Position numbers and translations under genes: made by a program. From Curvibacter sp. (GTDB lineage: Bacteria > Pseudomonadota > Gammaproteobacteria > Burkholderiales > Burkholderiaceae_C): 64,000 nt of DNA. The DNA is taken from positions 62,001 through 126,000 of the forward strand of contig JADCGR010000012.1 of assembly GCA_020248905.1 (NCBI GenBank). The letters run 5' to 3'. A model generated the notes under the pieces. The model was not told the origin of the DNA, ran no database searches, and saw nothing but the letters and a program-made list of their open reading frames with translations. Positions within the stretch are counted from its first letter, which is position 1. The number at the start of each line of letters is the position of its first letter. Positions 7,920 through 64,000 of the stretch are shown piece after piece.

Positions 7920-8165
7920 CTACCTGAACAGCCAAACAACTAGAGAGATAAGCCCACCAAGTAAGGTGCCAGTGATTGTGGTGGCTTGCAGTGTGGCCAA
8001 AATTGTCTTTCCCCGCATTGACTGGTAGAAGGCGTCCACACTTTCCCGCGGCATTCCTTCGTTAAGCATACCGGCTCCGACTCGGGCTGTCCTTCCAGCC
8101 AGAATCGCGAAAACCGCGATGGCCACGACCAAATAGGTGAGGCCAAAAACTGCGATGTAAGGCAT
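7920..8165 (-). CDS. Small hypothetical membrane protein (81 residues)
   Basis: On the minus strand the ATG at 8165 is preceded by GGGAGGT at a 7-base distance, which decides it over the GTG nine bases further upstream. The product begins MPYIAVFGLTYLVVAIAVFAILAG, a first membrane segment at about residues 2-24, then a charged loop (RESVDAFYQSMRGK) and a second membrane segment (TITGTLLGGLISLVVWLF) ending at the C-terminus. I do not recognise a family. It sits in the lower-GC accessory patch after mltA, bracketed by the 23-bp direct repeats, and has no co-directional partner close by. Confidence 0.55.
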   Translation of the reverse strand: MPYIAVFGLTYLVVAIAVFAILAGRTARVGAGMLNEGMPRESVDAFYQSMRGKTILATLQATTITGTLLGGLISLVVWLFR

Positions 8166-8520
8166 GCCAGCCACCTCCCTTAGCTACTCATGAGTTTCGG
8201 TTGAGGGGACGCGCTGATGCATCTTTTTCCCCTCAGCTTTACCCTTTGGACTATACCGAACTACTGGTCAAGTGCAAGGCCGGTGCGGGTCAAATTGCGT
8301 CATCGGCAGTGCTCCCGGTTCGTTTTGCACGGAAGTCATACGCTGACCTTTTCTGGCGCATATGGCTATGGAGTCGCAAGGCTATGCGACCCCAGGCAAA
8401 AGGAAAGACCTGACGCTACGGTAGTCATCCTGGGGCAGGGCTGAAGCGGCCAAGCTTGGTTGGCCCGGAAGGTTGCGCAAGCACTCCAAGCCTCATGTCG
8501 CCAGAAGATGGCTTGAGAGC
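8166..8520. other. Gene-free stretch of 355 bases in the accessory patch
   Basis: No frame here has a convincing ribosome site or protein-like product. It holds the second copy of the 23-bp repeat (8395-8417) and an interrupted inverted repeat of GAGGGG (about 8204) and CCCCTC (about 8230). The composition is AT-richer than the flanking core genome, which fits transferred or decaying DNA. Confidence 0.5.
8395..8417. repeat. 23-bp direct repeat, copy 2
   Basis: Reads GGCAAAAGGAAAGACCTGAC plus three further bases, two differences from the copy at 7852-7874, same orientation. It may mark the edge of an inserted segment or be one of many genome-wide copies; one window cannot distinguish these. 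Confidence 0.55.
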
Positions 8521-8907
8521 CTAATCGGGCCGACGCTTGCTCTGGACGTACTGAGTCCACAGATCCGGCAAACGCCAGACGACTGAGCAAGAAAAGTAAA
8601 GCGCAAGCGATGCGGGCCAATTGGCCTCGCGCATGAGCTCCAGTGCAACTGGATTCTTGAAGTGCCAGTACAACGCATAGCACCCATCGACAGTCCACCA
8701 CACTGCCAACAGCATAAGGGGCACTAGTCGTAAGCGCCTGTACAGGATGACTTTAAGCGACCATACGGATGTCAGATATGTGAAGCCCGCCATGATGAAG
8801 CTGATCGGGATATCCCAGTCGGGGGCTTCGTAGTAAAACGAGCCCGCGACGAGCAGTCCTACCCCGATCACGAGCGTGGTCAAGTTCCAAGGGTGGAAGT
8901 AATTCAT
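8521..8907 (-). CDS. Hypothetical polytopic membrane protein (128 residues)
   Basis: The ATG at 8907 (MNYFHPWN) gives a compact protein with three to four predicted membrane spans: about residues 8-26 (LTTLVIGVGLLVAGSFYY), 32-52, 60-82 (LVPLMLLAVWWTVDGCYAL) and a weaker one near 100-115. The open frame continues upstream to 9042 but that extension is hydrophilic and low-complexity and lacks a ribosome site. I do not recognise a family. It is the middle one of three minus-strand orphans in the AT-richer stretch between mltA and the lrp-like gene. Confidence 0.5.
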   Translation of the reverse strand: MNYFHPWNLTTLVIGVGLLVAGSFYYEAPDWDIPISFIMAGFTYLTSVWSLKVILYRRLRLVPLMLLAVWWTVDGCYALYWHFKNPVALELMREANWPASLALYFSCSVVWRLPDLWTQYVQSKRRPD

Positions 8908-9067
8908 AGGGTCGTCGTCACCTCTGCCGTTCGTGGCGAACGTGGCTGTACTAGCTTGGCGGCATCGAGTTCGGTCATTCTTCCCTGCGTCACCGCACTT
9001 GCCTAGATCTAGCGAGTTTTGGCTTCGAGCTTGAGCTGCCAAGCGTGCGGACTTTCAGGCGATTACA

Positions 9068-9802
9068 TTAACTTTCAGATTTTTTAGTCTGCTTTTTTTG
9101 CTTCTGTTGCGGCGATGGAGGGGTTGTTTGTAACTCCTTGGCTCGCCTATCAGCCCGAATCGTAAGTACTAGTTCAATAAAGTCTGATGGGTCAGACAGC
9201 CTCCCCACTAAAGCGTTTTGTGCTTCCAGACTGAGCGCACTAGGCTCAAAAACAGATTCGACCCCGTAGGAGGATGCTGCCACAGATATCTGATTCCAAG
9301 CAAAGGGTCTGCACGCGCGTGATACCGCTGCTGCTATGTCAGCAGCAGGAGAAATCCCATCATCTAACGCAAGAGCGCGATCGACGACACATTTCTTAAA
9401 TGCTTCTTTGGATGCATCTCGCATTACTTCCTTTTTTGCCCTAGCCTTATTGCGAAGCTCCTCCCACTCCGGAAACTTGTCCACAAAAGGGAAAATCCTA
9501 TCCGACTCAACAAGGGCATCCTCTACGCATTTTTGGGCTCTATCAATGGGAGAGATGCTGCAAGTGGACCAAAGTGAAAGCCAATTTAACTTTAGCTTCC
9601 ATACATCCAACCACTCCTGAACACTGTTAGCTTTTTCCAGCGCTGAGAGGTACCGGATATCCACGTATATCGCTCTTGCCATTCGATCGACGTCCGCGCA
9701 AAGAACCTTGATCTTCGTATCATTCCTATTGCAGTTCAAAGGGTCAGCAAAAGCTGGAGAGGCAAACAGAACTAAGGCGAGTACGGCGATTAGATTCTTC
9801 AT
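9068..9802 (-). CDS. Hypothetical exported protein with cysteine-rich N-terminal half (possible LprI-like fold)
   Basis: This 244-residue protein begins with a clear Sec signal peptide (MKNLIAVLALVLFASPAFA, cleavage before DPLNC). The mature part has cysteines spaced C...C...C...C with a tryptophan and a short helix pattern (LNWLSLWSTC, AQKCVEDAL, RIFPFVDKF) that weakly recalls the N-terminal domain of LprI-type lysozyme inhibitors; this is a pattern impression only. The C-terminus is a lysine/glutamine-rich tail (QQKQKKQTKK). Codon use and GC are lower than in the neighbours, suggesting transfer. No partner gene is adjacent. Confidence 0.6.
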   Translation of the reverse strand: MKNLIAVLALVLFASPAFADPLNCNRNDTKIKVLCADVDRMARAIYVDIRYLSALEKANSVQEWLDVWKLKLNWLSLWSTCSISPIDRAQKCVEDALVESDRIFPFVDKFPEWEELRNKARAKKEVMRDASKEAFKKCVVDRALALDDGISPAADIAAAVSRACRPFAWNQISVAASSYGVESVFEPSALSLEAQNALVGRLSDPSDFIELVLTIRADRRAKELQTTPPSPQQKQKKQTKKSES

Positions 9803-9996
9803 GGGTGCATCTTAACGGCGACCACCATTACAGCCTATCCTCGCGACTGCTGAGTTAGGCAGCGTGTGAACGAACACACCAGACGACCGTCCGCGCCGTT
9901 GATGAATATGTCTCTGTTCAGATCTCGCACTCGCATCGTCCCAATCCGGCTCACCGTGGAATCGTGCAAGAAACGGCATGACATGGCGGCACACGT

Positions 9997-10647
9997 CTAG
10001 CGCAGGCTCACGCGCACCTGCACCCGCAGGCTGCGGCTGCTGCTCTCCGTTACGCGTCCGCCCCCGCCCAGGCCGGCGGCGTTCTGGCGCTGGTCCTGCG
10101 CGTCCTCGCTGTCGGCAATCGTGGTCCACTCATCGAGCGGCAGCATCAGCGTGGTGGATGTGCTGGCCTGCGCGCCCAGCGGCTGGCGGCCCTGCGACGC
10201 CACCAGCTCCAGGTAGACGGTGTCGCCGCCCTCCCAAACCGGTGTCGCCGTGAAGCCCGTGCCCGCCTGCACCCACACGGTGCCGGGCATGCTGCGGCGG
10301 ATGCCGTTTTGCACGATGAACTGCCGCAGGCGCAGCGGCACGGTTTGCCCCAGGCTGATGGCCGTGGGCCGGCCGTTGAGCACCAGCGCCTGCTGCAGCG
10401 TGCGCCCGCTGCCCGCGCTGTCCCGCCGGCGGGCTTCGAGCGTGATGTCCACCTCGCTACGGCCCGGCTGCACGCGCGCATCGACCTCGGCGCCGATGCG
10501 CTCGTTGCTGGTGCTGCGGCCGTCGTCCTGACGCACCTCGATGAGCAGGTTGCGCAGGGGCAGCGGGGCTGGCGTCATCACGGTCTGGGCGCACAGCAGC
10601 GCGGGCAGGGCGGCCAGCAGGAGGACGCAGGCACGGCGGTGTTTCAT
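9997..10647 (-). CDS. Hypothetical exported protein, coupled to the Lrp-type regulator
   Basis: A 216-residue protein with a signal peptide (MKHRRACVLLLAALPALLCAQ) and a beta-rich mature part containing LRNLLIEVRQDD near the N-terminus and a Gly-rich segment (AGLGGGGRVTESS) near the end. The phrase PLDEWTTIADSED recalls proteins of secretin or pilus-accessory type, but no family can be assigned. Its ATG lies inside the TGA of the upstream lrp-like gene (4-base overlap), so it is translated from the same mRNA. That coupling of a transcription regulator with a periplasmic protein is functionally unexplained. Confidence 0.7.
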   Translation of the reverse strand: MKHRRACVLLLAALPALLCAQTVMTPAPLPLRNLLIEVRQDDGRSTSNERIGAEVDARVQPGRSEVDITLEARRRDSAGSGRTLQQALVLNGRPTAISLGQTVPLRLRQFIVQNGIRRSMPGTVWVQAGTGFTATPVWEGGDTVYLELVASQGRQPLGAQASTSTTLMLPLDEWTTIADSEDAQDQRQNAAGLGGGGRVTESSSRSLRVQVRVSLR

Positions 10648-47054: not shown

Positions 47055-47527
47055 ACCGCCCACGGAACACCATGAGATTCACCCCAAGCCTTCTCGTTAG
47101 AACGCTCGCCGGTCCGCGAGGTCTACCGCCCGCCGGTTAAGAACTGCTCACCGGGCCTCGCTAAAAAGGGCCACGGCTGCCAGCCGCAGGGCCAGGGCAA
47201 GAAATGGATGCTCGCCCAGCCGCTGCCGCGCGATCTTGGATTCCGGTCCGTAGAAGCCGAGATACGCATGTCTGGGCACGCCGACGGCGGGCGAAGATTT
47301 TTTGCGAGTGGCGCAGGATACGCTGATGATTGCCGTTGGCACGGCCACCGCCATCGACGCCATCGAACACCTTCGGCGCTGACAAAACGACGCAGACCCA
47401 TGGCGCCTAAACAACGCGCCATCGGTCTGCGTGGCCTTTCGCGGCGCGTGGAATCGTCACTCGCGAAGCGTGCTGAACCAGGGGTGTGATCGGCATAATC
47501 GCTGCACTGTCACACACAACACGCTTC
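47055..47527. other. Gene-free stretch between pyrF and the restriction-modification gene
   Basis: 473 bases without a supported gene. A minus-strand frame (47414-47148, ending LALALRLAAVALFSEAR) and a short plus-strand frame ending IAVGTATAIDAIEHLRR at about 47382 both look protein-like at their C-termini but have no starts or ribosome sites, so they may be tails of decayed genes. This is the left border of the 47-51.5 kb accessory patch. Confidence 0.45.
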
Positions 47528-50500
47528 ATGAGCCAGCTCCTCATCAACCATTACCTCAAGCAGCTCGACGTCATCAGAAGGGCCAGCGGGAGCAGCCGCG
47601 AGACCATCGTCCGCGAAGCCTTCAAGGATTTGCTCAAAGCCTGGGGCAAACAGCAAGACCTTGTCTTTCTGGCCGAATACCCGCTCAAGACCGCCACCAA
47701 AACCAGTATCAATGTGGACGGCGCGCTGCTGCACGAGCTGCGCATGCCGCTGGGCTACTGGGAGGCCAAGGACGCGAACGACGATCTGGACGAGGAAATC
47801 GCCAAGAAGTTCCGGCGCGGCTACCCGCAAGACAACATCATCTTCAGCGACGACCATAGCTTCGTGCTCTGGCAGCACCGGCAGGAGGCCATCCGCTGCA
47901 GGGTGGAGGACACGGCAGCGCTGGAGAGACTGCTCAAACTCTTCTTCAGCTACGAGCGGCCCGAGATCGCCGATTTCCGCAAGGCCGTGGAGCAGTTCAA
48001 GGCCGACTTGCCCGCCGTGCTGCAAGCACTGCGGGACATGATCGACGCCCAGGACGGAACCAACCCGGCGTACCGCAAAGCGGCCGCGCGCTTCCTGACG
48101 CACGCGCGCGAGGCGATCAACCCAGAGCTGGGCGACGCCGACATGCGCGAAATGCTCGTCCAGCACATCCTGACCGAGGAAATCTTCGCGAAGGTGTTTG
48201 ATGACAGCGACTTTCACCGCCACAACAACGTCGCACGCGAGCTTTACGCGCTGGAGGCCGCATTCTTCACAGGCGCGCTCAAGCGGCAGACGCTCAAGGG
48301 ACTGGAGTCTTATTACGCGGCGATCCGAGCCGCTGCCGCGCAGATAAGCAGCCACCACGAAAAGCAAACTTTCCTGAAAGTCATCTACGAAAACTTCTAC
48401 AAGGTCTACAACACCAAGGCGGCGGACCGGCTGGGCGTGGTCTACACGCCCAACGAAATTGTGCGCTTCATGATCGACGGCACTGACTGGCTTTGCGAAA
48501 AACACTTCGGCAAAAGCCTCGTAGACAAGGATGTGGACATTCTTGACCCCGCCACCGGCACGGGCACGTTTGTGTGCGAACTGCTGGAGCACTTTCGTGG
48601 TCAGCCAAAAAAGCTGGAGCACAAATACAAGCACGAGCTGCACGCCAACGAAGTGGCCATCCTGCCCTACTACGTGGCCAACCTGAACATCGAATCGACC
48701 TATGCCGCCATCACCGGCCAGTACGAAGAGTTTCCCAACCTCTGCTTCGTGGACACGCTGGACAACGTCGGCCGGCACACCGCAGCCAAAGGCACCACGG
48801 CCGAGCTGTTCGGCAGCGTGAGCGAGGAGAACGTCGCCCGCATCAAGCGCCAGAACAGCCGCAAGATCAGCGTCATCATCGGCAACCCGCCTTACAACGC
48901 CAACCAGGCCAATGAGAACGACAACAACAAGAACCGCGAATACCCGCAGATTGACCAGCGCATCAAGCAGACTTACATCGCCGAGAGCACCGCGCAAAAG
49001 ACCAAGCTCTACGACATGTACGCGCGCTTTTTCCGCTGGGCCAGCGACCGGCTGAACGAGAACGGCGTGCTGGCCTTTGTCACCAACCGCAGCTTCATCG
49101 AGAGCCGCACCTTCGACGGCTTTCGCAAGACTGTGGCGAAGGAATTCGCCGACATCTATGTAGTGGACCTGGGCGGTGACGTGCGCGCCAATCCCAAGCT
49201 CAGCGGAACGAAACACAACGTCTTCGGCATCCAGACTGGCGTGGCGATCAGTTTCATGGTCAAACGTCAGCAGAGTGTGAAAGACAAGCGGCCGGCGCGG
49301 ATTTGGCACGTGCGTCGCCCGGAGACGGAAACCGCAGAAGAAAAGCTTGCCTTTCTCGCGAGCCACCCGATGAGCGGCCTGGCATTCGACGAGATACAGC
49401 CCGACAAGGCAGCCAACTGGATCAACCTGACGAACAATGACTTCGATAAGTTGATTCCACTGGCGAGCAAGGAGACTAAGGCGGCCAAGACGACTGCGGA
49501 GGAACGCGCGATTTTCAAACTGTTTAGCAATGGCGTGAACACGGCGCGAGACGAATGGGTGTATGACGTAGGTGACGCTTCATTGAAGTCCAAGGTCGAT
49601 TACCTTATCCACGAATACAACGAAGAATTCAAGCGCACTCGTTCACGAGGCAAGGTAGACGCCAAGCTCGTTTCCAATAACATTAAGTGGAGTGCCGGAC
49701 TGCTGGGAAATGTCGGACGGGCACAGGCGGGACCGTTCTCTCAAAAATTGGTGGCGAAGGCCATCTATCGCCCGTACTGTCGAGTGAGGTACTACGCGGA
49801 CACCATCTTTTCTGATCGATTGACTGGAAACCACGCGGAGATCTATGGAGAAGGCCTCGACCAGTTGTCTGAAGGCTTTGCGCTCACTGCGCCAGGCGCA
49901 TCCAAAACATACAGCGCCTTGGCAGTAGACAGTCTTGCTGATTGGCATTGTCTTGGGGACACGCAAATATATCCTCGCACTCGGCTGGTGGATGGCACCC
50001 GTATCGACAACATCACCGACTGGGCACTCAAGCAATTCGCCAGCCATTACGCTGCCGAGATCGGCAAAGGCAAGGGCGCACGCAAGATCAGCAAGGAAGC
50101 CATCTTCAACTACTGCTACGCCGTGCTGCACGACCCGGTCTACCGCGAGAAGTACGCGCTCAATCTCAAGCGGGAATTTCCGCGTATTCCCTTTTATGCC
50201 AACTTTTGGCGCTGGGCCGACTGGGGCGAGCAGCTTATGCACCTGCACATCGGCTACGAGCAGGCACAGCCCTGCGCGCTGACGCGGCACGACGAGCCCG
50301 ACGCCAAGGCCCGCGCCGCCGGCCTGCCGCCCAAGGCCGTGCTGCGCGCCGACCCGGCAGCGGGCAGCATCGTCATCGACAGCGAAACCACGCTGCGCGG
50401 CGTGCCGCGCGAAGCGTGGGACTACAAGCTGTGCAACCGCTGCGCCATCGACTGGGTGCTGGACCAGTACAAGGAAAAGAAACCCAAAGACCCCACCATC

Positions 50501-50629
50501 CGCGAGAAGTTCGACACCTACCGGTTTGCCGAATACAAGGAAGGAGTCATCGACCTGCTCGCGCGCGTGACCACGGTGAGCGTGGAGACGGTGCGACTTG
50601 TTGAGGCAATGAAACTTGCGCTGCGCTGA
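47528..50629 (+). CDS. Type ISP-like restriction-modification enzyme (nuclease plus methyltransferase, no helicase)
   Basis: 1033 residues from the ATG at 47528. An N-terminal Mrr-like nuclease region with E79-A80-K81 in GYWEAKD, a helical region to about 300, a gamma-type N6-adenine methyltransferase with DPATGTGTF at 340 (SAM site) and catalytic NPPY at 453-456, and a C-terminal target-recognition region (residues ~620-1030). LlaGI-type ISP enzymes carry the same nuclease-methyltransferase-recognition parts but with an SF2 helicase of about 500 residues inserted, absent here; the shorter build resembles type IIG enzymes. It should methylate and cut its own site. No separate specificity or methylase gene is adjacent. 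Confidence 0.85.
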   Translation: MSQLLINHYLKQLDVIRRASGSSRETIVREAFKDLLKAWGKQQDLVFLAEYPLKTATKTSINVDGALLHELRMPLGYWEAKDANDDLDEEIAKKFRRGYPQDNIIFSDDHSFVLWQHRQEAIRCRVEDTAALERLLKLFFSYERPEIADFRKAVEQFKADLPAVLQALRDMIDAQDGTNPAYRKAAARFLTHAREAINPELGDADMREMLVQHILTEEIFAKVFDDSDFHRHNNVARELYALEAAFFTGALKRQTLKGLESYYAAIRAAAAQISSHHEKQTFLKVIYENFYKVYNTKAADRLGVVYTPNEIVRFMIDGTDWLCEKHFGKSLVDKDVDILDPATGTGTFVCELLEHFRGQPKKLEHKYKHELHANEVAILPYYVANLNIESTYAAITGQYEEFPNLCFVDTLDNVGRHTAAKGTTAELFGSVSEENVARIKRQNSRKISVIIGNPPYNANQANENDNNKNREYPQIDQRIKQTYIAESTAQKTKLYDMYARFFRWASDRLNENGVLAFVTNRSFIESRTFDGFRKTVAKEFADIYVVDLGGDVRANPKLSGTKHNVFGIQTGVAISFMVKRQQSVKDKRPARIWHVRRPETETAEEKLAFLASHPMSGLAFDEIQPDKAANWINLTNNDFDKLIPLASKETKAAKTTAEERAIFKLFSNGVNTARDEWVYDVGDASLKSKVDYLIHEYNEEFKRTRSRGKVDAKLVSNNIKWSAGLLGNVGRAQAGPFSQKLVAKAIYRPYCRVRYYADTIFSDRLTGNHAEIYGEGLDQLSEGFALTAPGASKTYSALAVDSLADWHCLGDTQIYPRTRLVDGTRIDNITDWALKQFASHYAAEIGKGKGARKISKEAIFNYCYAVLHDPVYREKYALNLKREFPRIPFYANFWRWADWGEQLMHLHIGYEQAQPCALTRHDEPDAKARAAGLPPKAVLRADPAAGSIVIDSETTLRGVPREAWDYKLCNRCAIDWVLDQYKEKKPKDPTIREKFDTYRFAEYKEGVIDLLARVTTVSVETVRLVEAMKLALR

Positions 50630-55931: not shown

Positions 55932-55979
55932 TTGACAGCTGACCCTAAGTTTCTCCAGAATGGTTCCATTTCAGAACCA
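55932..55979 (+). promoter_or_regulatory. Promoter and operator of the FitA/VapB-type antitoxin-toxin pair
   Basis: TTGACA (55932-55937), an 18-base spacer and CAGAAT (55956-55961) form a sigma-70 promoter; TGGTTC (55961-55966) and GAACCA (55974-55979) are perfect inverted arms around 7 bases at the expected start site. This is the normal place of an autoregulatory operator for a ribbon-helix-helix antitoxin. Confidence 0.65.
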
Positions 55980-55989
55980 CTTTGAAGTC

Positions 55990-56280
55990 ATGCCTCATCT
56001 TTCCATCAAGGATGTGCCGCCGGCCTGGGCTGAGGCCCTGCGCCAGCGCGCACTTCAGCACCATCGCTCGCTGCAGGGCGAGCTCATGGCCATCCTGGAG
56101 CAGGCTCTGAGTGCGGCGCCGCCGCGGCCAGCGGTAACGGCCGCGCCCGAAGCGGGTTTGCGTCAGGGCCGCAAGACGCTGGCTCAGGTGCGGCAGGCCC
56201 TGCAGGCCCGATATCCGCGGCCCATCGAAGGCCAGTCCTCCAGCGTGGCCTTGATCCGTGAGGCGCGCGACAGCCGATGA
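55990..56280 (+). CDS. FitA/VapB-like ribbon-helix-helix antitoxin
   Basis: The ATG at 55990 gives 96 residues starting MPHLSIKDVPPAWAEAL, a strand followed by two helices (RALQHHRSLQGELMAILEQAL, in part HHRSLQGELMAILE), the usual ribbon-helix-helix of FitA-type antitoxins, then a variable linker and a C-terminal toxin-binding tail (TLAQVRQALQARYPRP). The frame upstream to 55960 overlaps the operator and is not coding. Its stop overlaps the toxin start (ATGA). Confidence 0.82.
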   Translation: MPHLSIKDVPPAWAEALRQRALQHHRSLQGELMAILEQALSAAPPRPAVTAAPEAGLRQGRKTLAQVRQALQARYPRPIEGQSSSVALIREARDSR

Positions 56281-56702
56281 GTGCCCTGCACATCGCCGAG
56301 CCGCCGGCGAAGTACCAGGTCCGTCCGCCCATCGTGGTGGACTGCAGCGCCCTGGCCGGCATCGTCTTTCGCGAGCCCTGGGGCGAGCAGGCGGCGCAGC
56401 AGCTGGAGGCACGCAGCCTGCACGCGCCCTGGTTGCTGCAGGTTGAGATCGCCAGCGTAGCGGTCAAGAAGATGAGGCGCGGCGAAGAACACGCGGCCTA
56501 TGGCCTGGGACTGGCGGCGGACATGGCGATCGACCTGCATGCCGTCGATGCGGTGGCCGTCGCCCATCTTGCGCAGCGCTATCAGCTCAGCGCCTACGAC
56601 GCCGCTTACCTCTGCCTGGCAGCCGAACTGCGCTGCCCGCTGGCTACCTTCGACGCCCAGTTGGCCCATGCGGCGCAGAGCCACCTGGCCAGCCTCATCT
56701 GA
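56277..56702 (+). CDS. PIN-domain toxin (VapC/FitB type)
   Basis: 141 residues with a PIN fold: the first acidic metal ligand Asp22 in [13 protein letters not shown], Glu in [14 protein letters not shown], Asp in [15 protein letters not shown] and the last in [12 protein letters not shown]. Such toxins cut RNA, often tRNA, unless bound by the antitoxin encoded just before. The 18 N-terminal residues before the first strand are longer than usual. Confidence 0.85.
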
Positions 56703-56758: not shown

Positions 56759-57241
56759 ATGGCATCCGTCAACAAAGTCATCCTGGTCGGCAACTGCGGC
56801 CGCGATCCCGAAATCCGCTACCTGCCCTCGGGCCAGGCCGTGGCCAATGTCAGCGTGGCGACCTCCAGCCGCCGCAAGGACAAGAACTCGGGCGAGATGA
56901 TCGAAGACACCCAATGGCATCGCGTCACCTTCTACGACCGCCTGGCCGAGATCGCCGGCGAGTACGTCAAGAAGGGCCGCCCCATCTATGTGGAAGGCCG
57001 CCTCAAGTACGGCAAGTACACCGACAAGGACGGCATCGAGAAGAACACCGTGGACATCATCGCCACCGAAATGCAGTTGCTCGGCGGCCGCGAAGGCATG
57101 GGTGGTCCCGACGATGAAGGCGGCGCCCCGCGCCGCAGCGCCCCGGCCCAGCGCCCGGCGGCCAGCGCCCCGGCCCAGCGCCAGGCGCCCGCCAAGTCGT
57201 CCAGCGGCTTTGACGACATGGACGACGACATTCCGTTCTAA
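56759..57241 (+). CDS. ssb: Single-stranded DNA-binding protein
   Basis: 160 residues: OB-fold with [21 protein letters not shown], in part [15 protein letters not shown], and [19 protein letters not shown], in part [14 protein letters not shown], a Pro/Ala/Gln-rich linker and the acidic tip DMDDDIPF that binds partner proteins. GAAGAGAG lies about 8 bases before the ATG. It protects single-stranded DNA in replication and repair. A strong terminator follows, after which the integrated element begins. Confidence 0.97.
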
Positions 57242-57270: not shown

Positions 57271-57306
57271 TGGCCCGCTTCCCAAATGGGGAGCGGGCCA
57301 TTTTTC
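57271..57306 (+). terminator. Strong terminator after ssb
   Basis: TGGCCCGCTTCCC (57271-57283) pairs with GGGGAGCGGGCCA (57288-57300) with one wobble pair, loop AAAT, and TTTTT follows. It ends the ssb transcript and separates it from the recombinase operon. Confidence 0.9.
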
Positions 57307-57376: not shown

Positions 57377-58633
57377 ATGCCGAGGTATGTCGCGCAGCGA
57401 ATCCGTTTCCAGAACGGGGAGCGGCACTCCGTGCTTCAGGTCCCATATGGACTTCCCGTTCACGAAGTCACGCTTTATCTGGGTCGTTTCCGGAAGAAGG
57501 GCAGGGCGGCGAACACCATCCATTTCGTGTGCACGGCCCTTGCGCTTTTGTATCGTGAGCTCTCGTCAGCTCAAGTGAGTTTGGTTCAGCGCCTCAGCAA
57601 TGGGCGATTCCTATCCCTCTCCGAGCTCGACCGGCTGGCTGCGGCAACTCAGTATCGATTCGAGGATTTAGAAGAAGAGGAGAGCGAAGTCCAGCGTAGC
57701 CAAAATGTCGTCAGCCTGAACCGCATCGCTATGCGCCGTCGTAGTAAAGACGACCATAGACAGCCCGTCGACGTTCAGACTCAGGCGTCTAGAGTCAGGT
57801 ACATCGCCGACTTTCTTGACTTCATCTCTGCATACGTCGGGGAGAGTCTTCCGCCGCAGAGCCGTCGAGAGCTCCGGGAAGACACGGCGCGAGCTTTGAG
57901 CGCATTTCGACAGCATATTCCTAGAGTATCCAGGCGAGCCAAGATTGGCGCTCGTATTGGGCTAACCGAGGAAGAGCAAACCAGATTGGTCGAGGTCGTT
58001 CGGCCTGACTCTCCCGATAACCCTTGGAAGCGACCATTTATACGCAGCCGTAATCAATTAATTGTGCTCCTCCTGTTGGCCACAGGCATGCGGCGAGGAG
58101 AACTACTCGGCTTGCAGGTACGAGACATTCTGCCCAATCAACCTAAGCTTCGCATCGTCCGCCGTGCCGATGCATCTCAGGACCTTAGGACGAAACAGCC
58201 GGGTACGAAGACTAGCGACCGAGAAATTGAGCTGATTCCCTCCATCGCCCGAGCGCTTCATATGTATCTACAGGAGCGCAGAACCATCAGAGCAGCTCGC
58301 TTGATACCCCAGGTTTTTGTATCCGATGACGGCAAAGCCCTTTCAGAAAGCAGTATCGAGAAAATATTTCGGCAACTGAGCGTGGCATGCCCTGACCTCT
58401 CGGTGAAGCTGACTAGCCATGTCATGCGTCACACATGGAACGAAAGGTTCTCTGAAATCGCCGATGCAATGGGTCTTTCGGAAGTGGTCGAGGAGCGGGC
58501 CCGCAATACCCAGCAGGGATGGGCAGAAAACTCGAAGACTGGCGCAACTTATACAAGACGTCACAGCGCCAAGAAGGGCCAAGAAATCGCGCTCAAGTTG
58601 CAGGAGAAGCTTGATGCCGCGCGCTCTCAGTAA
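57377..58633 (+). CDS. Tyrosine recombinase/integrase 1 of the element
   Basis: 418 residues from the ATG at 57377. The C-terminal catalytic half has the expected residues: Arg239 in ATGMRRGELLG, His348 and Arg351 in SHVMRHTWNERF, and Tyr392 in TGATYTRRHS. The N-terminal half (to about 190) contains a SAM-like core-binding region (RVRYIADFLDFISAYVGE). An acidic patch (EDLEEEESE) at about residue 95 is unusual. The gene overlaps the next recombinase by 20 bases. It should join and cut DNA ends through a 3'-phosphotyrosine link; whether it acts alone or with the other two is not known. Confidence 0.88.
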   Translation: MPRYVAQRIRFQNGERHSVLQVPYGLPVHEVTLYLGRFRKKGRAANTIHFVCTALALLYRELSSAQVSLVQRLSNGRFLSLSELDRLAAATQYRFEDLEEEESEVQRSQNVVSLNRIAMRRRSKDDHRQPVDVQTQASRVRYIADFLDFISAYVGESLPPQSRRELREDTARALSAFRQHIPRVSRRAKIGARIGLTEEEQTRLVEVVRPDSPDNPWKRPFIRSRNQLIVLLLLATGMRRGELLGLQVRDILPNQPKLRIVRRADASQDLRTKQPGTKTSDREIELIPSIARALHMYLQERRTIRAARLIPQVFVSDDGKALSESSIEKIFRQLSVACPDLSVKLTSHVMRHTWNERFSEIADAMGLSEVVEERARNTQQGWAENSKTGATYTRRHSAKKGQEIALKLQEKLDAARSQ

Positions 58634-60143
58634 GACCGAAATAAAAGCGCCCGACGGAGCGCGAGTGCTGCCGGAGGTGGCGCACACACGCAGCGGAATC
58701 GCGTTTAGACCTAGCGATGACTTATGGCGTTGGCGGGATGGCCCTTTTGAGGTGAATCTCAGTTTTGAGCGGGTTGACTCATCAGCGGCCTTGCTGCTGC
58801 CTTGCCTCAAGCACACCCTTTGTGTGTTCGCGAAGCAGGCGTCACCGTCACACCTCGGAAACTTGTACGAAGCATTTGTTCACTTCCTCCGTAGAAGGGT
58901 AAGCAACTCTCCCCTCACGTCAATCACAACGGAAGAAATCTCCAACTACATCGCCACGCTCAAGCAGGATGAAAAATGGCGTATTGGCCACCTGAACGTA
59001 CTCTTGCAAAAGTGGGCCGCGCTGGAACTCCCAGGTGTTGATGAGGAGTGCGTTCGTTATCTGTCAGAGATTCGCAAACCCGGTAATGTCAAAGGGGCCG
59101 CTGTGCGGCAGCGCGACCCGTTTAATGGACCGTTTAGCGAGGAGGAATACACAGCGCTCTACAAAGCTGTGGACGCGGCCTACGGTACAGGTGAGATTCC
59201 GCCTTGGGTTATTGTCCTGGCCCGACTACTTTTCGCCACTGGAGCCCGAATCTCTCAGATGGCGTCCCTTAAGGTCAAAGACCTCAGAATCGAAAGAGGC
59301 AAGTACGTCCTCAACCTTCCACACGGAAAAACCGGACTAGTAAACAACCGCGAGTCGTTCATTGAGTTCGTGTTGAGCCCACAGACCGGCAGGCTTGTGA
59401 TGGAGCACATCGAGCGAATGAATGCCGATAGTGACGCGCCGCTGTTTCCAGAGCACGAGGTCCACGTAAGAACTCAACACCCTCGTCCGACAAACGACCC
59501 GTTTGCGGGGCATTGCATCAGCCAAGTATTGTCTGCAGCCTTCTCCAGAGCTATTGGTCCAATCACACCGCTCACCTCTCGGCTCAATTTTCAGACCTTT
59601 ACAGTACTTCCAAAGCGGTTTCGCTCAACCTTTGCAACTCGTATGGCAGAGGAAGGCGCCAGCCGAGCGGTGATTGCCGAAAGGCTGGGTCATACCGACT
59701 TACAGAACGTCGACGTCTACTTTGAGGCGTCACCTGCCATAGTTGACAGCATCGACAGAGCAATGAGTCGCCAACTCGCTCCACTCGCGCGGGCGTTCAG
59801 AGGTCGCTTGGTAGAGGATGAGGCTCACTCAACGCACAAGGGCGCGCCAGGCAGCCGGATTATTGACTTCCGCGTGTCGACAAAGCCACTCGCAAGCTGC
59901 GCGGGCAAAGCTCAAGGCTGCGCGTTCAACAAGCCAGTCGCCTGTTACACATGTCATCGATTTGAGCCATGGCTGGACGCACCGCATGAAAAGGTGCTTC
60001 AACGCCTCAAAGCGGAACGTACCAAGTGGCAGCACGATGAGCGATTGGCCGCCATTAACGACGACGCAATCGAGGCAGTACGGGAAGTTATTGCCGAGTG
60101 TGCGCGGGCTCGGAAGCAACAAGGTGCGAGGGAACAGCCGTGA
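58614..60143 (+). CDS. Tyrosine recombinase 2 of the element, with Cys-rich C-terminal segment
   Basis: The ATG at 58614 (AGGAG 8 bases before) gives 509 residues; a longer frame to 58419 is a shadow of recombinase 1. Catalytic residues: Arg212 in FATGARISQM, Lys334 and Arg337 in PKRFRSTFATRM (Lys in place of the usual His), His360 in ERLGHTD, and Tyr369 in VDVYFEAS. After the catalytic domain a segment with CAGKAQGC and ACYTCHRF may bind zinc. In the strand-biased circularizing elements the middle gene encodes a recombinase-fold protein, but here the catalytic set looks complete. Overlaps recombinase 3 by GTGA. Confidence 0.85.
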   Translation: MPRALSKTEIKAPDGARVLPEVAHTRSGIAFRPSDDLWRWRDGPFEVNLSFERVDSSAALLLPCLKHTLCVFAKQASPSHLGNLYEAFVHFLRRRVSNSPLTSITTEEISNYIATLKQDEKWRIGHLNVLLQKWAALELPGVDEECVRYLSEIRKPGNVKGAAVRQRDPFNGPFSEEEYTALYKAVDAAYGTGEIPPWVIVLARLLFATGARISQMASLKVKDLRIERGKYVLNLPHGKTGLVNNRESFIEFVLSPQTGRLVMEHIERMNADSDAPLFPEHEVHVRTQHPRPTNDPFAGHCISQVLSAAFSRAIGPITPLTSRLNFQTFTVLPKRFRSTFATRMAEEGASRAVIAERLGHTDLQNVDVYFEASPAIVDSIDRAMSRQLAPLARAFRGRLVEDEAHSTHKGAPGSRIIDFRVSTKPLASCAGKAQGCAFNKPVACYTCHRFEPWLDAPHEKVLQRLKAERTKWQHDERLAAINDDAIEAVREVIAECARARKQQGAREQP

Positions 60144-62149
60144 GCGCCACCGTTCTACATTTCACGCCGAATGCAGAGCTTGCACCGCAGGAGAACCTAG
60201 ATGCCTTCATCGAGACGTGCCGGCGCTCAAATGTACTTAGCGCAAGTAAACAGTTTGACCAGAACACATGGGATATTGGCTATGTCAAGGGCCAGAACAA
60301 GATGCAGCGGGCCATTTTCAGCACTATGGAGGCAGCCGCTAATCGCGAAAACGAACCATTTCTCCCGGAGCCATTCTTGAGCTTCAGTAAAGCGGCACTC
60401 GTATATCTTCACGACCGTCGCCCGGTTGTATCCCAAGCATCAAGGATATCCGCACTCAGATTCCTTGAGGCGGCACTTCGTGACTTGAATAAAGGTTCAC
60501 GACCAACTGCCGTCAACGAGGACGTTCTGGACACGGCGGTAGAGCTGGCCCGAAACCAACTCGGAGCTGCAGCCGCCTACCGAGTGGCCGGGCAGCTCGA
60601 ATTTATCGCGGACATGATGACGAGCAATGAGTTCATCTCCCTCCGCGTGCGCTGGGCACACGGAATGAAAAAGCCAGCAGAGCTTGGCTCACGAATCTCC
60701 ACCGATGCCCTGCAGGCTAGACAAGAGAAACTGCCGTCTGCAGCTGCTCTTCGGGCACTCGCTGGAATCTTCCAAGAAGCTACGGAACTTCGAGACATCG
60801 TCGTTTCGAGCTACACCGCGCTAATGGCGTGTGCGCCTGAGCGGGTTAACGAGGTTCTGAGACTCAGGCGCGACGCGCTTGTAAGAGGTGACGGGAGATT
60901 CACCGGAAAGGTCGGTCTGCGTTGGCCTGGCTCGAAGGGCGCTGAAGACACCATCAAATGGTTGCCTACCGAAATGGTGCCTGTCGCCGAGAAGGCCATG
61001 AGTAACCTTCTAAGGGCGACAGTGCAGGCTAACGAGTTGGCCGAATGGTATGCAGCGAATCCGAACCAGATTTTTCTTCATCCAGAAGCGCAGTACCTGA
61101 GGGGCAAGGAGCTGTTGAGCAGCGCAGACATAGCTCTCATACTCTGGGGAGATGCGGATGCGGCGCCCTCCGCAGTGCAATGGGCGAACGCAAGGAAAGA
61201 GCTGACAAAGGTCCCCTTGCAGGGCAGACGCGTCGGATATCGGTTCACGGATATGGAGACGGCTGTACTGTCCCTGCTTCCAGAAACGTTTCCTTATGTG
61301 CCTGGCGCGCCGGACCTGATGTGCAAGGACGCGCTGGGAGTAATTCCTCTTAACGCCATGGCATCCGAGCGCGCTACCTATAAGTGCATGTTCAGTTGTA
61401 TCGGCTACACGAACATCTCGATGCCACTCACTGGCAGCAACGGACAGCAGACCATTTTTGATAAGTTTCACTACACCGAGGACGATGGCACCCCGATTAC
61501 CTTCAGGACGCATAGCCTTCGTCATTACTTGAACACGCTGGCACAAATGGGCGGTATGACCAGCGCGGAAATAGCCCTCTTCTCTGGTCGAAAGGACGTC
61601 TCTCAGAACAGAGCGTACGACCACATGACATCCAATGAGGTTCAGGAGCCAATTAGCCAAGCACTGAAGAGTGGGATGAACGCCCAGCTGTCACCCTATC
61701 AATCTTCTCGACCCGTAAATCTGCGCAGCAAGTTCTCGCTGGTCAGCAGCGCTGCCGGCCACACAACTGAGTTCGGCTGGTGCACACATGACTTTGCGGG
61801 GGAGCCTTGTCAAATGCATCGCGACTGCATCAATTGCGAAGAGCAGGTGTGCGTTAAAGGTGAAGGCGAAAAGGAAAAGAACCTTAGAAACTTGAAAGCT
61901 GAGACGGAGCATCTTCTTGCGAACGCGAAAAGCGCTATGAATGAAAAAGAGTACGGTGCAGACGCATGGGTAAAGCATCAGACGATGACGCTTGAGCGAA
62001 TCAACTCTCTCCTCGCAATCCTTGAAGACCCCAATGTCCCAACTGGCGCCCAAGTGCGTCTCGATATCCAGAACGCCCCGCTGATTGCGAACTCGGTTGA
62101 GCCGGCGCGCAAACCTCTCCAATTTAAACGCCGGAGGGCTCTGAAATGA
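60140..62149 (+). CDS. Tyrosine recombinase 3 of the element, large type with Cys-rich C-terminal segment
   Basis: A GTG at 60140 with GAGGGA before it gives 669 residues. An N-terminal domain of about 230 residues leads to a catalytic domain with an Arg in ACAPERVNEVLRL, His-x-x-Arg in RTHSLRHYLNTLA and Tyr in NRAYDHMT; the position usually His or Trp is Arg in FSGRKD. Beyond it lies a Cys/His cluster (GWCTHDFAGEPCQMHRDC, INCEEQVC) and a helical tail that looks coiled coil. This is a different subfamily from recombinases 1 and 2. Start and stop both overlap neighbouring genes (GTGA and ATGA). Confidence 0.85.
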   Translation: MSATVLHFTPNAELAPQENLDAFIETCRRSNVLSASKQFDQNTWDIGYVKGQNKMQRAIFSTMEAAANRENEPFLPEPFLSFSKAALVYLHDRRPVVSQASRISALRFLEAALRDLNKGSRPTAVNEDVLDTAVELARNQLGAAAAYRVAGQLEFIADMMTSNEFISLRVRWAHGMKKPAELGSRISTDALQARQEKLPSAAALRALAGIFQEATELRDIVVSSYTALMACAPERVNEVLRLRRDALVRGDGRFTGKVGLRWPGSKGAEDTIKWLPTEMVPVAEKAMSNLLRATVQANELAEWYAANPNQIFLHPEAQYLRGKELLSSADIALILWGDADAAPSAVQWANARKELTKVPLQGRRVGYRFTDMETAVLSLLPETFPYVPGAPDLMCKDALGVIPLNAMASERATYKCMFSCIGYTNISMPLTGSNGQQTIFDKFHYTEDDGTPITFRTHSLRHYLNTLAQMGGMTSAEIALFSGRKDVSQNRAYDHMTSNEVQEPISQALKSGMNAQLSPYQSSRPVNLRSKFSLVSSAAGHTTEFGWCTHDFAGEPCQMHRDCINCEEQVCVKGEGEKEKNLRNLKAETEHLLANAKSAMNEKEYGADAWVKHQTMTLERINSLLAILEDPNVPTGAQVRLDIQNAPLIANSVEPARKPLQFKRRRALK

Positions 62150-62580
62150 GAAAGCCTCGTGCTCCAGATTTGACTAACGAGCGGATTGAAGTGGTTCTTT
62201 CAACAATAGATGATTGGAAAGGAAAGCTGACTTGGGACTTGCTAATCGAGTCAGTGGAGAAAGCTACAGGTATAGCCTACTCACGCTTCACCTTGGCTGA
62301 GTACCCCGACATAGCCAATGCCTTCCGATTGAAGAAGCAAGCACTTCGAGGAACTTGGAAAGGAAAACAAATAGTCCCCAGGGACGAACGCGTACGCGCA
62401 GCTCTGGAGCAAGTCGAACGTCTTCAAGCGACAGTTGCGAGACTTAAGCAAGAGAACATGCTCTTAAAAGAACAGTTTGTTACCTGGGCGTACAACGCCG
62501 AGCGTAAAGGCGTGACCATGATGATGTTGAATGCGCCGTTGACGAAACCTCATCGAGACCGTACGAGAGGAGAGGGTTGA
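62146..62580 (+). CDS. Small accessory protein 1 of the element (GmtX/TnpC-like, coiled coil)
   Basis: 144 residues. The N-terminal part (DWKGKLTWDLLIESVEKATG, YSRFTLAEYPDIANAF) looks like a small DNA-binding unit, followed by a predicted coiled coil (RVRAALEQVERLQATVARLKQEN, in part LEQVERLQATVARLKQEN) and the closing word EQFVTWAYNAERKGVTMMMLN, in part EQFVTWAYNAERKG. That ending recalls, from memory, the GmtX family and TnpC-like helpers in related elements. A likely role is to guide or bias the recombinases; not proven. ATGA overlap with recombinase 3. Confidence 0.75.
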   Translation: MRKPRAPDLTNERIEVVLSTIDDWKGKLTWDLLIESVEKATGIAYSRFTLAEYPDIANAFRLKKQALRGTWKGKQIVPRDERVRAALEQVERLQATVARLKQENMLLKEQFVTWAYNAERKGVTMMMLNAPLTKPHRDRTRGEG

Positions 62581-63017
62581 TGGCTAATGGGCAGCAAATT
62601 GCCGAAGAGAACCTCAAGAAGTTTTCGGCGTGGGCAACATCAAAGACAGACGAGGACTTTCGCTCCTTGGCTTTGCGCGGTGTTCTGTCTCGGACTGACA
62701 TTGCGGCTGAATGTGGATTCGCGAAATCTGCCCTGAGCCAGAACCCTCGCATTCGCGAAGCATTGAAACGCCTCGAGGAAGAGCTGCGTAGTCGAGGCGT
62801 GCTCCCGCAGATGGCAACTGCGCCCGGGGATACTCCGGGAAATTCGCCCACTGGTACTTCAGCAGGAAGCCTCAACCGTAGGGACGCCGAGCGGCTCAAA
62901 CGACTTGAACAGGAGAATGCAAGCCTCCGCGCCGAGTTGGCCGAAGTCAAGCGTGCTTTGTCCCGCTACGCAGTGCTTCAGGAAGCACTTGCTGATACTA
63001 GAAGGCTTCCACGTTGA
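62580..63017 (+). CDS. Small accessory protein 2 of the element (VPA1267-like, HTH plus coiled coil)
   Basis: The ATG at 62580 shares its A with the preceding TGA; GGAG lies 7 bases before it. The 145-residue product starts MANGQQIAEENLKKFSAWA, then an HTH-like segment (LSRTDIAAECGFAKSALSQNP), a variable linker with Gly/Thr/Ser, and a C-terminal coiled coil (RLKRLEQENASLRAELAEV). The start and ALSQNPRIREAL resemble, from memory, the VPA1267 family seen in recombinase-trio islands. DNA binding is inferred. Its stop overlaps the TTG of the helicase gene. Confidence 0.75.
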   Translation: MANGQQIAEENLKKFSAWATSKTDEDFRSLALRGVLSRTDIAAECGFAKSALSQNPRIREALKRLEEELRSRGVLPQMATAPGDTPGNSPTGTSAGSLNRRDAERLKRLEQENASLRAELAEVKRALSRYAVLQEALADTRRLPR

Positions 63018-64000
63018 GCCAGTCAATCACCGTTCGAGTAGTAACCGTCAGGTCGCAGAACCCTCGCGGTTTCGGTGGGGCGATATTCTCCGGAGTCCCT
63101 GTAAACAGCACCGGTGGTGTAGTCGATGCTGCTGCGTACGTTGTAGTCCGAGCGCCGCGACAGACCCTAGGAAACACCAGGGTAGAGCGTGGGCAGTGGT
63201 GGACCGTAAGTGGACCTGTTACTGAACGACAGGTACAAGTCAACGGATTCGTCATGAAAGAGCGCGAGTTGAATGCCGAAGAGGCATTGCTCGCGCGCCC
63301 ATCGGGTGAACACATTATCAATTTTCTGGCCGACAACCCGGCGTTCGAAGGTGTTGGAACCGTAAAGGCCAGGCGGCTGTGGGACACATTTGGAGAACGT
63401 CTGTATGAGCTTCTAGAGGCAGGTGATGCCGACTCTTTGGCTGGTGTCCTCACGCCCGAGGTCGCCAATCGCGTAGTGCTGGCGTGGAGTTCACTTGGCG
63501 ATTTGGGGACCTTGCAGTGGCTCCAGTCACAGGGCTTTGAGCCGAAACTTGGTCGTAAAGTGTTGGCCTTCTTCGGGGCTGACGCTCGTGCCCGCATTGA
63601 GGAGGACCCCTATCGCCTGCTTTCCTTCTGCGCCGGTTGGAAAGAGGTTGACTGCCTCGCGCTCGACCAGTTTGGTTTAGAGCCCACAGACCCACGCCGC
63701 CTTCTCGGTGCCGTGGAGGAGGGGTGTTACCGAGTATTCAGCGATGGCCACACCGCAATGCTGTCTGCTGACTTGATGGACCGAGTAGTTCCACTACTTG
63801 GCCGACCTCCAGTAGGCGTTCGTTGGCGCGACCAGCTGTCTGAAGCATTGAACCTGGGCCTTAGTAACGGCACGTTCGTCAAATGCCGGCATGGTTTGCA
63901 GCCCCTCGGCGCGTTTGTGATGGAACGTCAGATTGCGCTGGCCGTGAAAAGCCGTGTCAGTAGTGGGTCTGCACCATTGCTCACGGCTGCTGAGGTAGAG
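63014..64000 (+). CDS. RecD2-like DNA helicase, N-terminal part (3' truncated by window end)
   Basis: A TTG at 63014 overlaps the preceding stop (TTGA) and opens a frame of 329 codons with no stop to the window end. The first 80 residues look like the N-terminal OB-like domain of RecD2 (NPRGFGGAIFSG, RGQWWTVSGPV); an HhH-type segment follows (FEGVGTVKARRLWDTFGERL), then helical repeats and the words EDPYRLLSF and YRVFSDGHTAML, the order found in RecD2. The Walker A motif would lie beyond the edge, so ATPase activity is inferred from the family. A second possible start (ATG 63254) would lose the OB part. Confidence 0.75.
   Translation, partial: MSQSITVRVVTVRSQNPRGFGGAIFSGVPVNSTGGVVDAAAYVVVRAPRQTLGNTRVERGQWWTVSGPVTERQVQVNGFVMKERELNAEEALLARPSGEHIINFLADNPAFEGVGTVKARRLWDTFGERLYELLEAGDADSLAGVLTPEVANRVVLAWSSLGDLGTLQWLQSQGFEPKLGRKVLAFFGADARARIEEDPYRLLSFCAGWKEVDCLALDQFGLEPTDPRRLLGAVEEGCYRVFSDGHTAMLSADLMDRVVPLLGRPPVGVRWRDQLSEALNLGLSNGTFVKCRHGLQPLGAFVMERQIALAVKSRVSSGSAPLLTAAEVE

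Follow-up and report, generated by a model that had tools for sequence, protein, structure and literature searches.

A recurrent pair of genes for a GinD-like small protein and a RecD2-like helicase in GInt-type islands at the ssb gene

GInts are defined by the genes ginA, ginB, ginC and ginD, all four of which were required for excision and integration in the GInt studied by Bardaji et al. 2017 (PMC5385486). Six of the eleven GInts examined there sit at an ssb gene, a minimal GInt is mobile with ginABCD alone, cargo is said to begin where ginD stops, and some GInts form circles with no empty site detectable. A GInt-type element has also been named a Tn6571-family transposon (PMC10121019). Two other systems are similar. 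Strand-biased circularizing elements (SEs) combine several genes of recombinase fold with one for a small protein, show gene overlaps and have a 6-bp footprint (PMC9345347; PMC10214605), but their order is intA-tfp-intB-srap, they are reported to be distinct in sequence from GInts, and no helicase is mentioned in those descriptions. Tn554 has in its small TnpC a counterpart of GinD and also a 6-bp footprint, whereas it possesses two recombinases and no counterpart of GinC (PMC10214605). Here we describe an island behind ssb in a 64,000-nucleotide stretch of Curvibacter sp. (G000:C4:62001-126000; "the window" below), in which two further genes, one for a small protein (S2) and one for a RecD2-like helicase, follow a ginABCD-like set. 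Its target is ssb, whereas that of Tn554 is radC.

All six genes were confirmed as open reading frames (ORFs; Table 1). As an earlier note on this DNA had it, they encode three tyrosine recombinases (genes 1 and 2 by Pfam, gene 3 by fold and active-site residues), two small proteins and a helicase, and all five junctions overlap, by 20, 4, 4, 1 and 4 bp. The last but one is 1 bp if S2 starts at the ATG at 62580 (145 aa) and 4 bp if it starts at TTG (146 aa). The window end cuts the helicase after 329 aa, but contig C4 runs 1,823 bases further and contains the complete gene (754 aa, window coordinates 63014-65278).

The island shares with published GInts the gene order ginA-ginB-ginC-ginD, in which three recombinases are followed by a small protein, the site-specific insertion at the end of ssb (a frequent target of the class) with an unaltered ssb product, the hybrid attachment sites and the short, AT-richer 3' end. 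The 150 bp that precede attR have a GC content of 0.48, compared with 0.551 for the left part of the island and 0.658 for window positions 1-57200. For the class, flanking imperfect direct repeats of 10-17 nt are given; here both island ends carry an identical 6-bp core, and similarity beyond it is weak. Variable cargo begins at the ginD stop, and the recurrent exception to its variability is the S2-helicase pair, which the island adds to the published core of four genes. By gene order, fold, size and ssb target, rather than by scores against the published GInt proteins, we identify the island as a GInt-type element with genes 1 to 4 as its putative ginA, ginB, ginC and ginD. Among known recombinase pairs and trios the earlier note listed gamma-mobile-trio (GMT) islands, but GInt, the established class to which this trio belongs, was not named there. 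GMT was rejected as the class of the island: GinA gave only 18.8 bits with the GmtY model (cut-off 340), and the other island genes had no GmtX or GmtZ match.

For relatives, GTDB genomes were scanned with an alignment of GinC, and the best 80 of 162 confirmed places yielded 79 loci. Three plasmid loci brought the set to 82, holding 82 separate elements. In a search with gene 3, 7,999 candidates had been scored, of which 405 proteins reached E 1e-3 or better. Profiles matched GinC in all 82 loci, ssb in 52 and the helicase in 24 (GinA, GinB and GinD in Table 1); S2 matched in 30 loci, in part through weak cross-matches on GinD. The overlap of ginC and ginD is 4 bp in 41 of 82.

S2 and the helicase occur together or not at all. 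Of 73 testable elements, i.e. those with at least 3 kb behind ginD, 23 have both, 50 have neither and none has one alone. Counting the window and two elements with less flanking sequence (L036, L062), 26 bear the helicase. Wherever present, the pair follows ginD immediately. In each of 25 elements the helicase gene starts before S2 has ended (overlap 4 bp in 19, 1 bp in three, 8 bp in three; start codons chosen mechanically as the nearest to the stop), while the ginD-S2 junction is looser. Because the arrangement recurs in relatives with overlaps in all 25, it must be more than chance. Among ORFs of 100 aa or more, counted up to 3 kb downstream of ginD or of the helicase, no other family is common to more than five of 72 elements. 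S2 is homologous to GinD itself by profile comparison (probability 96.6, E 6.8e-10). Class-wide, among 369 genomes, the S2 family model NF040697 was above cut-off only in the window's own genome, and the helicase was found at E 1e-60 in three, the own one included.

The pair also has a history of its own. Across 25 elements, identity matrices correlate at 0.947 for GinC with GinD and at 0.919 for S2 with the helicase, but at 0.577 for GinC with S2 and 0.695 for GinC with the helicase, so that S2-helicase is inherited as a block separate from GinC-GinD. Two elements show that the pair was exchanged: L040 is 39% identical to the window in GinC and 69% in the helicase, and the helicase of L084 clusters with those of GMT islands (support 100). 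On a GinC tree of 81 rows the helicase label changes 18 times, against a mean of 21.6 in shuffles, of which 35 in 500 gave a number this low for the helicase group; it is scattered and hardly clustered. In some lineages the pair was lost. Directly behind ginD, five of 57 helicase-less elements (L010, L011, L066, L087 and L013) retain a 5' stump of S2, with scores exceeding those of all 2,280 control windows. In the first three, homology to helicase-bearing elements ends at about S2 nucleotide 36, and they are alike further downstream, so that one shared event or a preferred joint may lie behind them.

The earlier note had taken the overlaps as a sign of one fixed machine of six gene products, and had itself held that helicase-less relatives would speak against it. 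Those are the rule here, in 50 of 73 testable elements. An obligatory machine does agree with the overlap of all five junctions, and because of the stumps some helicase-less elements must descend from six-gene ones. Since the pair is missing so often and the genes fall into two separate inheritance blocks, we nevertheless consider it refuted and give it hardly any credence. The helicase could instead be variable cargo, the other outcome the note had envisaged. Its presence does vary, but it always comes paired with S2 in one slot, so it is not ordinary cargo. The pair might also be cargo with some other island or host function (e.g. defence or repair) and have come to lie where cargo adjoins ginD. 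Cargo is said to begin there (PMC5385486), and a pair that is absent from most testable elements, exchanged, and lost with stumps left behind suits this explanation. It does not explain why the pair is always first behind ginD when other cargo genes within 3 kb recur in at most five of 72 elements, why the same slot is used in GMT islands and divergent trios (see below), or why S2 is a homologue of GinD, a recombination factor. We regard the cargo explanation as rather doubtful. What the comparison supports is a helicase module that can be exchanged and is associated with elements having several recombinases.

The pair is not confined to GInts. Three GMT records (L140, L141, L143) show the order gmtY, gmtZ-type gene, gmtX, VPA1267, helicase; only for L143 did family models confirm GmtZ and GmtX. 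In L140 gmtY is followed by a 55-bp gap, and the later junctions overlap by 1, 1 and 4 bp. The overlaps of L141 measure 1, 1, 1 and 4 bp, those of L143 4, 4, 8 and 8 bp. In a fourth GMT record, L142, the pair likewise follows gmtX, but an insertion sequence splits the helicase into two pieces. GMT islands thus resemble our island in that a small gene, gmtX, is immediately followed by S2 and by a helicase from the subfamily of the island's own, and differ in their other recombinases, GmtY and GmtZ. Plasmid records with an S2 match number 45, and among the 30 listed, 24 name gmtX under the match. The pair is further carried by divergent trios (L144, L145, L148) and, on a Rhodovastum atsumiense plasmid (L150, 7230-10806), stands directly behind a RepB-type primase gene and in front of integrase genes. 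In L146 the helicase follows a small protein weakly similar to S2 (16.6 bits), with neighbours that read as recombinase-like. A shared and exchanged module thereby links GInts with GMT islands.

The island helicase resembles RecD2 in its SF1B core and RecD2 HHH domain, but compared with plain plasmid RecD-like helicases its subfamily sits on a separate long branch. All helicase motif patterns are present in the window protein; of 25 GInt helicases, 24 show Walker A, 23 the DEAS box, all 25 motif III, 21 motif V and 22 motif VI. With the RecD2 equivalog model TIGR01448 (cut-off 500 bits) the window helicase scored 56.5 bits, only its first 329 of 754 aa being scanned, and the full-length GMT helicase of L143 scored 366. 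With the GInt helicase profile, all eight outside helicases scored whole (L140, L141, L143-L146, L148, L150) reached 503-730 bits. Helicases of L147, L149 and L151, which are without S2, reached 391-398 bits and fall outside the long branch (support 100; the program warns of long branches meeting). In the places examined, which cover part of the 188 plasmid records with a helicase match, helicases of the close subfamily occur only near recombinase genes. A phage origin was considered and rejected, identity being 27-31% in the five shown of 36 phage records. None of 49 relatives in IMG/VR exceeded 405 bits, and none had an S2 match.

While the existence of the module, its slot, pairing, exchange and loss are shown by the compared loci, its biochemical role is our inference. 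The island was inserted by site-specific recombination at a core of 6 bp within the tail codons of ssb. GinA, GinB, GinC and GinD would perform the recombination, as was shown for another GInt (PMC5385486) and is expected here by homology. S2, a second GinD-like small protein translationally coupled to the RecD2-like helicase, most likely recruits it to the recombined att junction. There the helicase might unwind or displace a strand, so that the circular form is made by replication (copy-out); alternatively, it might clear a recombinase-bound intermediate. Helicases of the RecD2 family move 5'-3', and the same polarity of unwinding can be presumed for the island SF1B helicase. The copy-out proposal fits reports that some GInts form circles with no empty site detectable (PMC5385486) and the argument that SEs copy out (PMC10214605). 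A GInt at the 6-bp core of the ssb tail, with an optional and exchangeable S2-helicase module that likely aids copy-out or intermediate clearing, is our best explanation, and we consider it an even matter whether it is right.

Some observations weigh against a part in recombination. The helicase is missing from 50 of 73 testable elements and a minimal GInt moves with ginABCD alone; therefore it is not essential to recombination generally. Two identical tandem GInts (L027/L029) are without it. Its scattered label on the GinC tree could also fit an ordinary acquired gene. Another possibility is that the helicase acts after excision or entry and not in strand exchange, and so restarts or protects the island, for example by aiding replication of the circle or by countering the host RecBCD/SSB machinery. 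Its RecD-like fold and the RepB primase adjoining the pair in L150 would agree with this, and some RecD2 proteins bind the SSB tail. No replication initiator was found in the assembled part of the island, however, where no search was made for an origin, and we think such a late role improbable.

A broader version of our explanation is that S2-helicase constitutes a dedicated strand-displacement or replication cassette, mixed and matched among multi-recombinase elements, namely GInts, GMT islands and two or more other kinds of operon. Copy-out would then follow single-strand exchange, with S2 as an adaptor to a GinD- or GmtX-like partner. We put this forward tentatively, as a possibility that falls somewhat short of an even chance. 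If it is true, multi-recombinase elements copy out with their own helicase, beyond cut and paste. Among GInts, SEs and Tn554-like elements, some form circles while no empty site is detectable, which hints at copying. No element-encoded replication factor is named in the texts searched, and a helicase recurrent in a fixed slot across different recombinase sets is a concrete candidate, which makes the copy-out question testable. That a helicase wired into such an operon is unfamiliar, as the earlier note remarked, agrees with the GInt and SE texts searched, where it goes unmentioned: the word "helicase" appears nowhere in the main text of PMC5385486, of PMC10214605 or of PMC10121019. We found no description of the S2-helicase pair in GInts in the open literature searched; the GMT paper was outside that scope and may contain an earlier notice. 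The GInt class and the ssb target are already known, and the VPA1267 family is named in NCBIfam.

GinC deserves separate attention. It has been described as missing the first arginine (PMC5385486) and as being without the catalytic tyrosine (PMC10214605). Gene 3 has no Pfam match at E 1, and a PDB search with the GinC profile gave two weak matches only, apparently by chance. Yet GinC has the recombinase fold, and in contrast to the published view the set R, H, R, Y is kept here: R235, K266, R461 and Y493 are conserved in 76 of 76 alignment rows and H458 in 75. Comparison of the GinC and GinB profiles (probability 22%, E 9e-4) pairs Y493 with Y369 of GinB and R235 with R212. The R-H-R-Y set questions the view of GinC as catalytically incomplete. 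Behind the recombinase domain, C548, C557, C563, C566 and C571 are present in all 76 rows (residues 548-571) and could form a zinc site. A Cys cluster is present in GinB too.

The ssb gene in front of the six genes is the integration target and not an operon partner: the DNA that natively follows ssb resumes on the far side of attR, and ssb genes of plasmids serve as targets as well, with a homologous trio about 133-160 bp behind ssb in three plasmid records. Membership of ssb in the operon is thereby ruled out. Of 64 elements with at least 300 bp of upstream sequence, 51 have an ssb ORF in it. By eye, the remaining 13 include L012, with an ssb tail beside masked bases, L023 and L029, which follow another GInt, and several that lie behind other genes. 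All 52 ssb ORFs have a DDIPF-type tail (43 DDDIPF, 4 EDDIPF, 2 SDDIPF, 2 DDEIPF, 1 MDDVPF).

The middle of the island is unassembled, its left part being on C4 and its right end on C20; the ends of both contigs resemble what we take to be insertion-sequence breaks. An ssb match was found in 25 of 26 genomes of the genus, and a strong GinC match only in the window's own (three others are weak, about 21 bits). Among seven congener stretches, four share the ORFs following ssb (L119, L120, L123, L124), L121 and L125 share other ORFs, and L122 is the second ssb of its genome (G017). Contig C20 contains native ssb-downstream sequence of the L119/L120 type, 83% identical to L120, beside 1.1 kb of other DNA and then the contig end. 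To the right of attR no ssb stop stands directly behind the core, perhaps owing to a later deletion, whereas it is present in L119, L120 and L124. Two plasmids give the same core: when occupied pTROUS1 is compared with empty pCT14, the match to the left of the element and that to its right have exactly 6 bp of the empty site in common. These lie in the same ssb codons, and the ssb stop of pTROUS1 is supplied by the element. A match on C16 was rejected as the right end, because it is the end of another gene in a seemingly phage-like stretch; the true right end is that on C20.

Table 1. Features of the ssb-linked island and its left junction (window coordinates)
Feature	Position	Strand	Evidence
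ssb, integration target, DDDIPF tail kept	56759..57241	+	PF00436
attL, 6-bp core in ssb tail codons	57233..57238	+	identical 6 bp = attR, contig C20 33498-33503
Terminator-like hairpin, island left end, ssb/ginA interval	57271..57300	+	consensus scan: 1 vs 0.2 in shuffles
Gene 1, ginA-like tyrosine recombinase, 418 aa	57377..58633	+	PF00589; homologue in 76/82 loci
Gene 2, ginB-like tyrosine recombinase, 509 aa	58614..60143	+	PF00589; NF041502 above cut-off; homologue in 80/82 loci
Gene 3, ginC-like tyrosine recombinase, 669 aa, GTG start, C-terminal Cys cluster	60140..62149	+	recombinase fold, conserved residues
Gene 4, ginD-like small protein, 144 aa, predicted coiled coil	62146..62580	+	homologue in 80/82 loci; alignment
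Gene 5, S2, VPA1267-family small protein, GinD homologue	62577..63017	+	NF040697 177.9 bits, cut-off 90
Gene 6, RecD2-like SF1B helicase, first 329 of 754 aa	63014..64000	+	PF14490, PF13604, PF13538; PDB 3e1s E 1.7e-36

Directly 3' of the helicase follows a staphylococcal-nuclease-like ORF (L002 8288-8710, window about 65287-65709), and then the contig ends. Immediately upstream of ssb, at window positions 55960-56702, there is a gene pair for a ribbon-helix-helix and a PIN-domain protein, a likely type II toxin-antitoxin. Elsewhere in the window, a type ISP restriction-modification enzyme (47486-50629) lies in a lower-GC stretch, and the pTROUS1 GInt likewise has a type ISP enzyme 3' of ginD. 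A patch at 8001-10000 has a GC content of 0.527 and ORFs without Pfam match.

Among the relatives, ginD is split in L084. The tandem GInts L027 and L029 of Tepidimonas fonticaldi (NZ_VJOO01000006.1) lie at one ssb, 21,741 bp apart, and are 100% identical over at least 14,931 bp; they are a recent duplication, by copy-in of the element next to itself or by unequal crossing over. In Paraburkholderia elongata (L023) two different GInts, both with the helicase pair, are stacked head to tail, the second beginning at the right end of the first.

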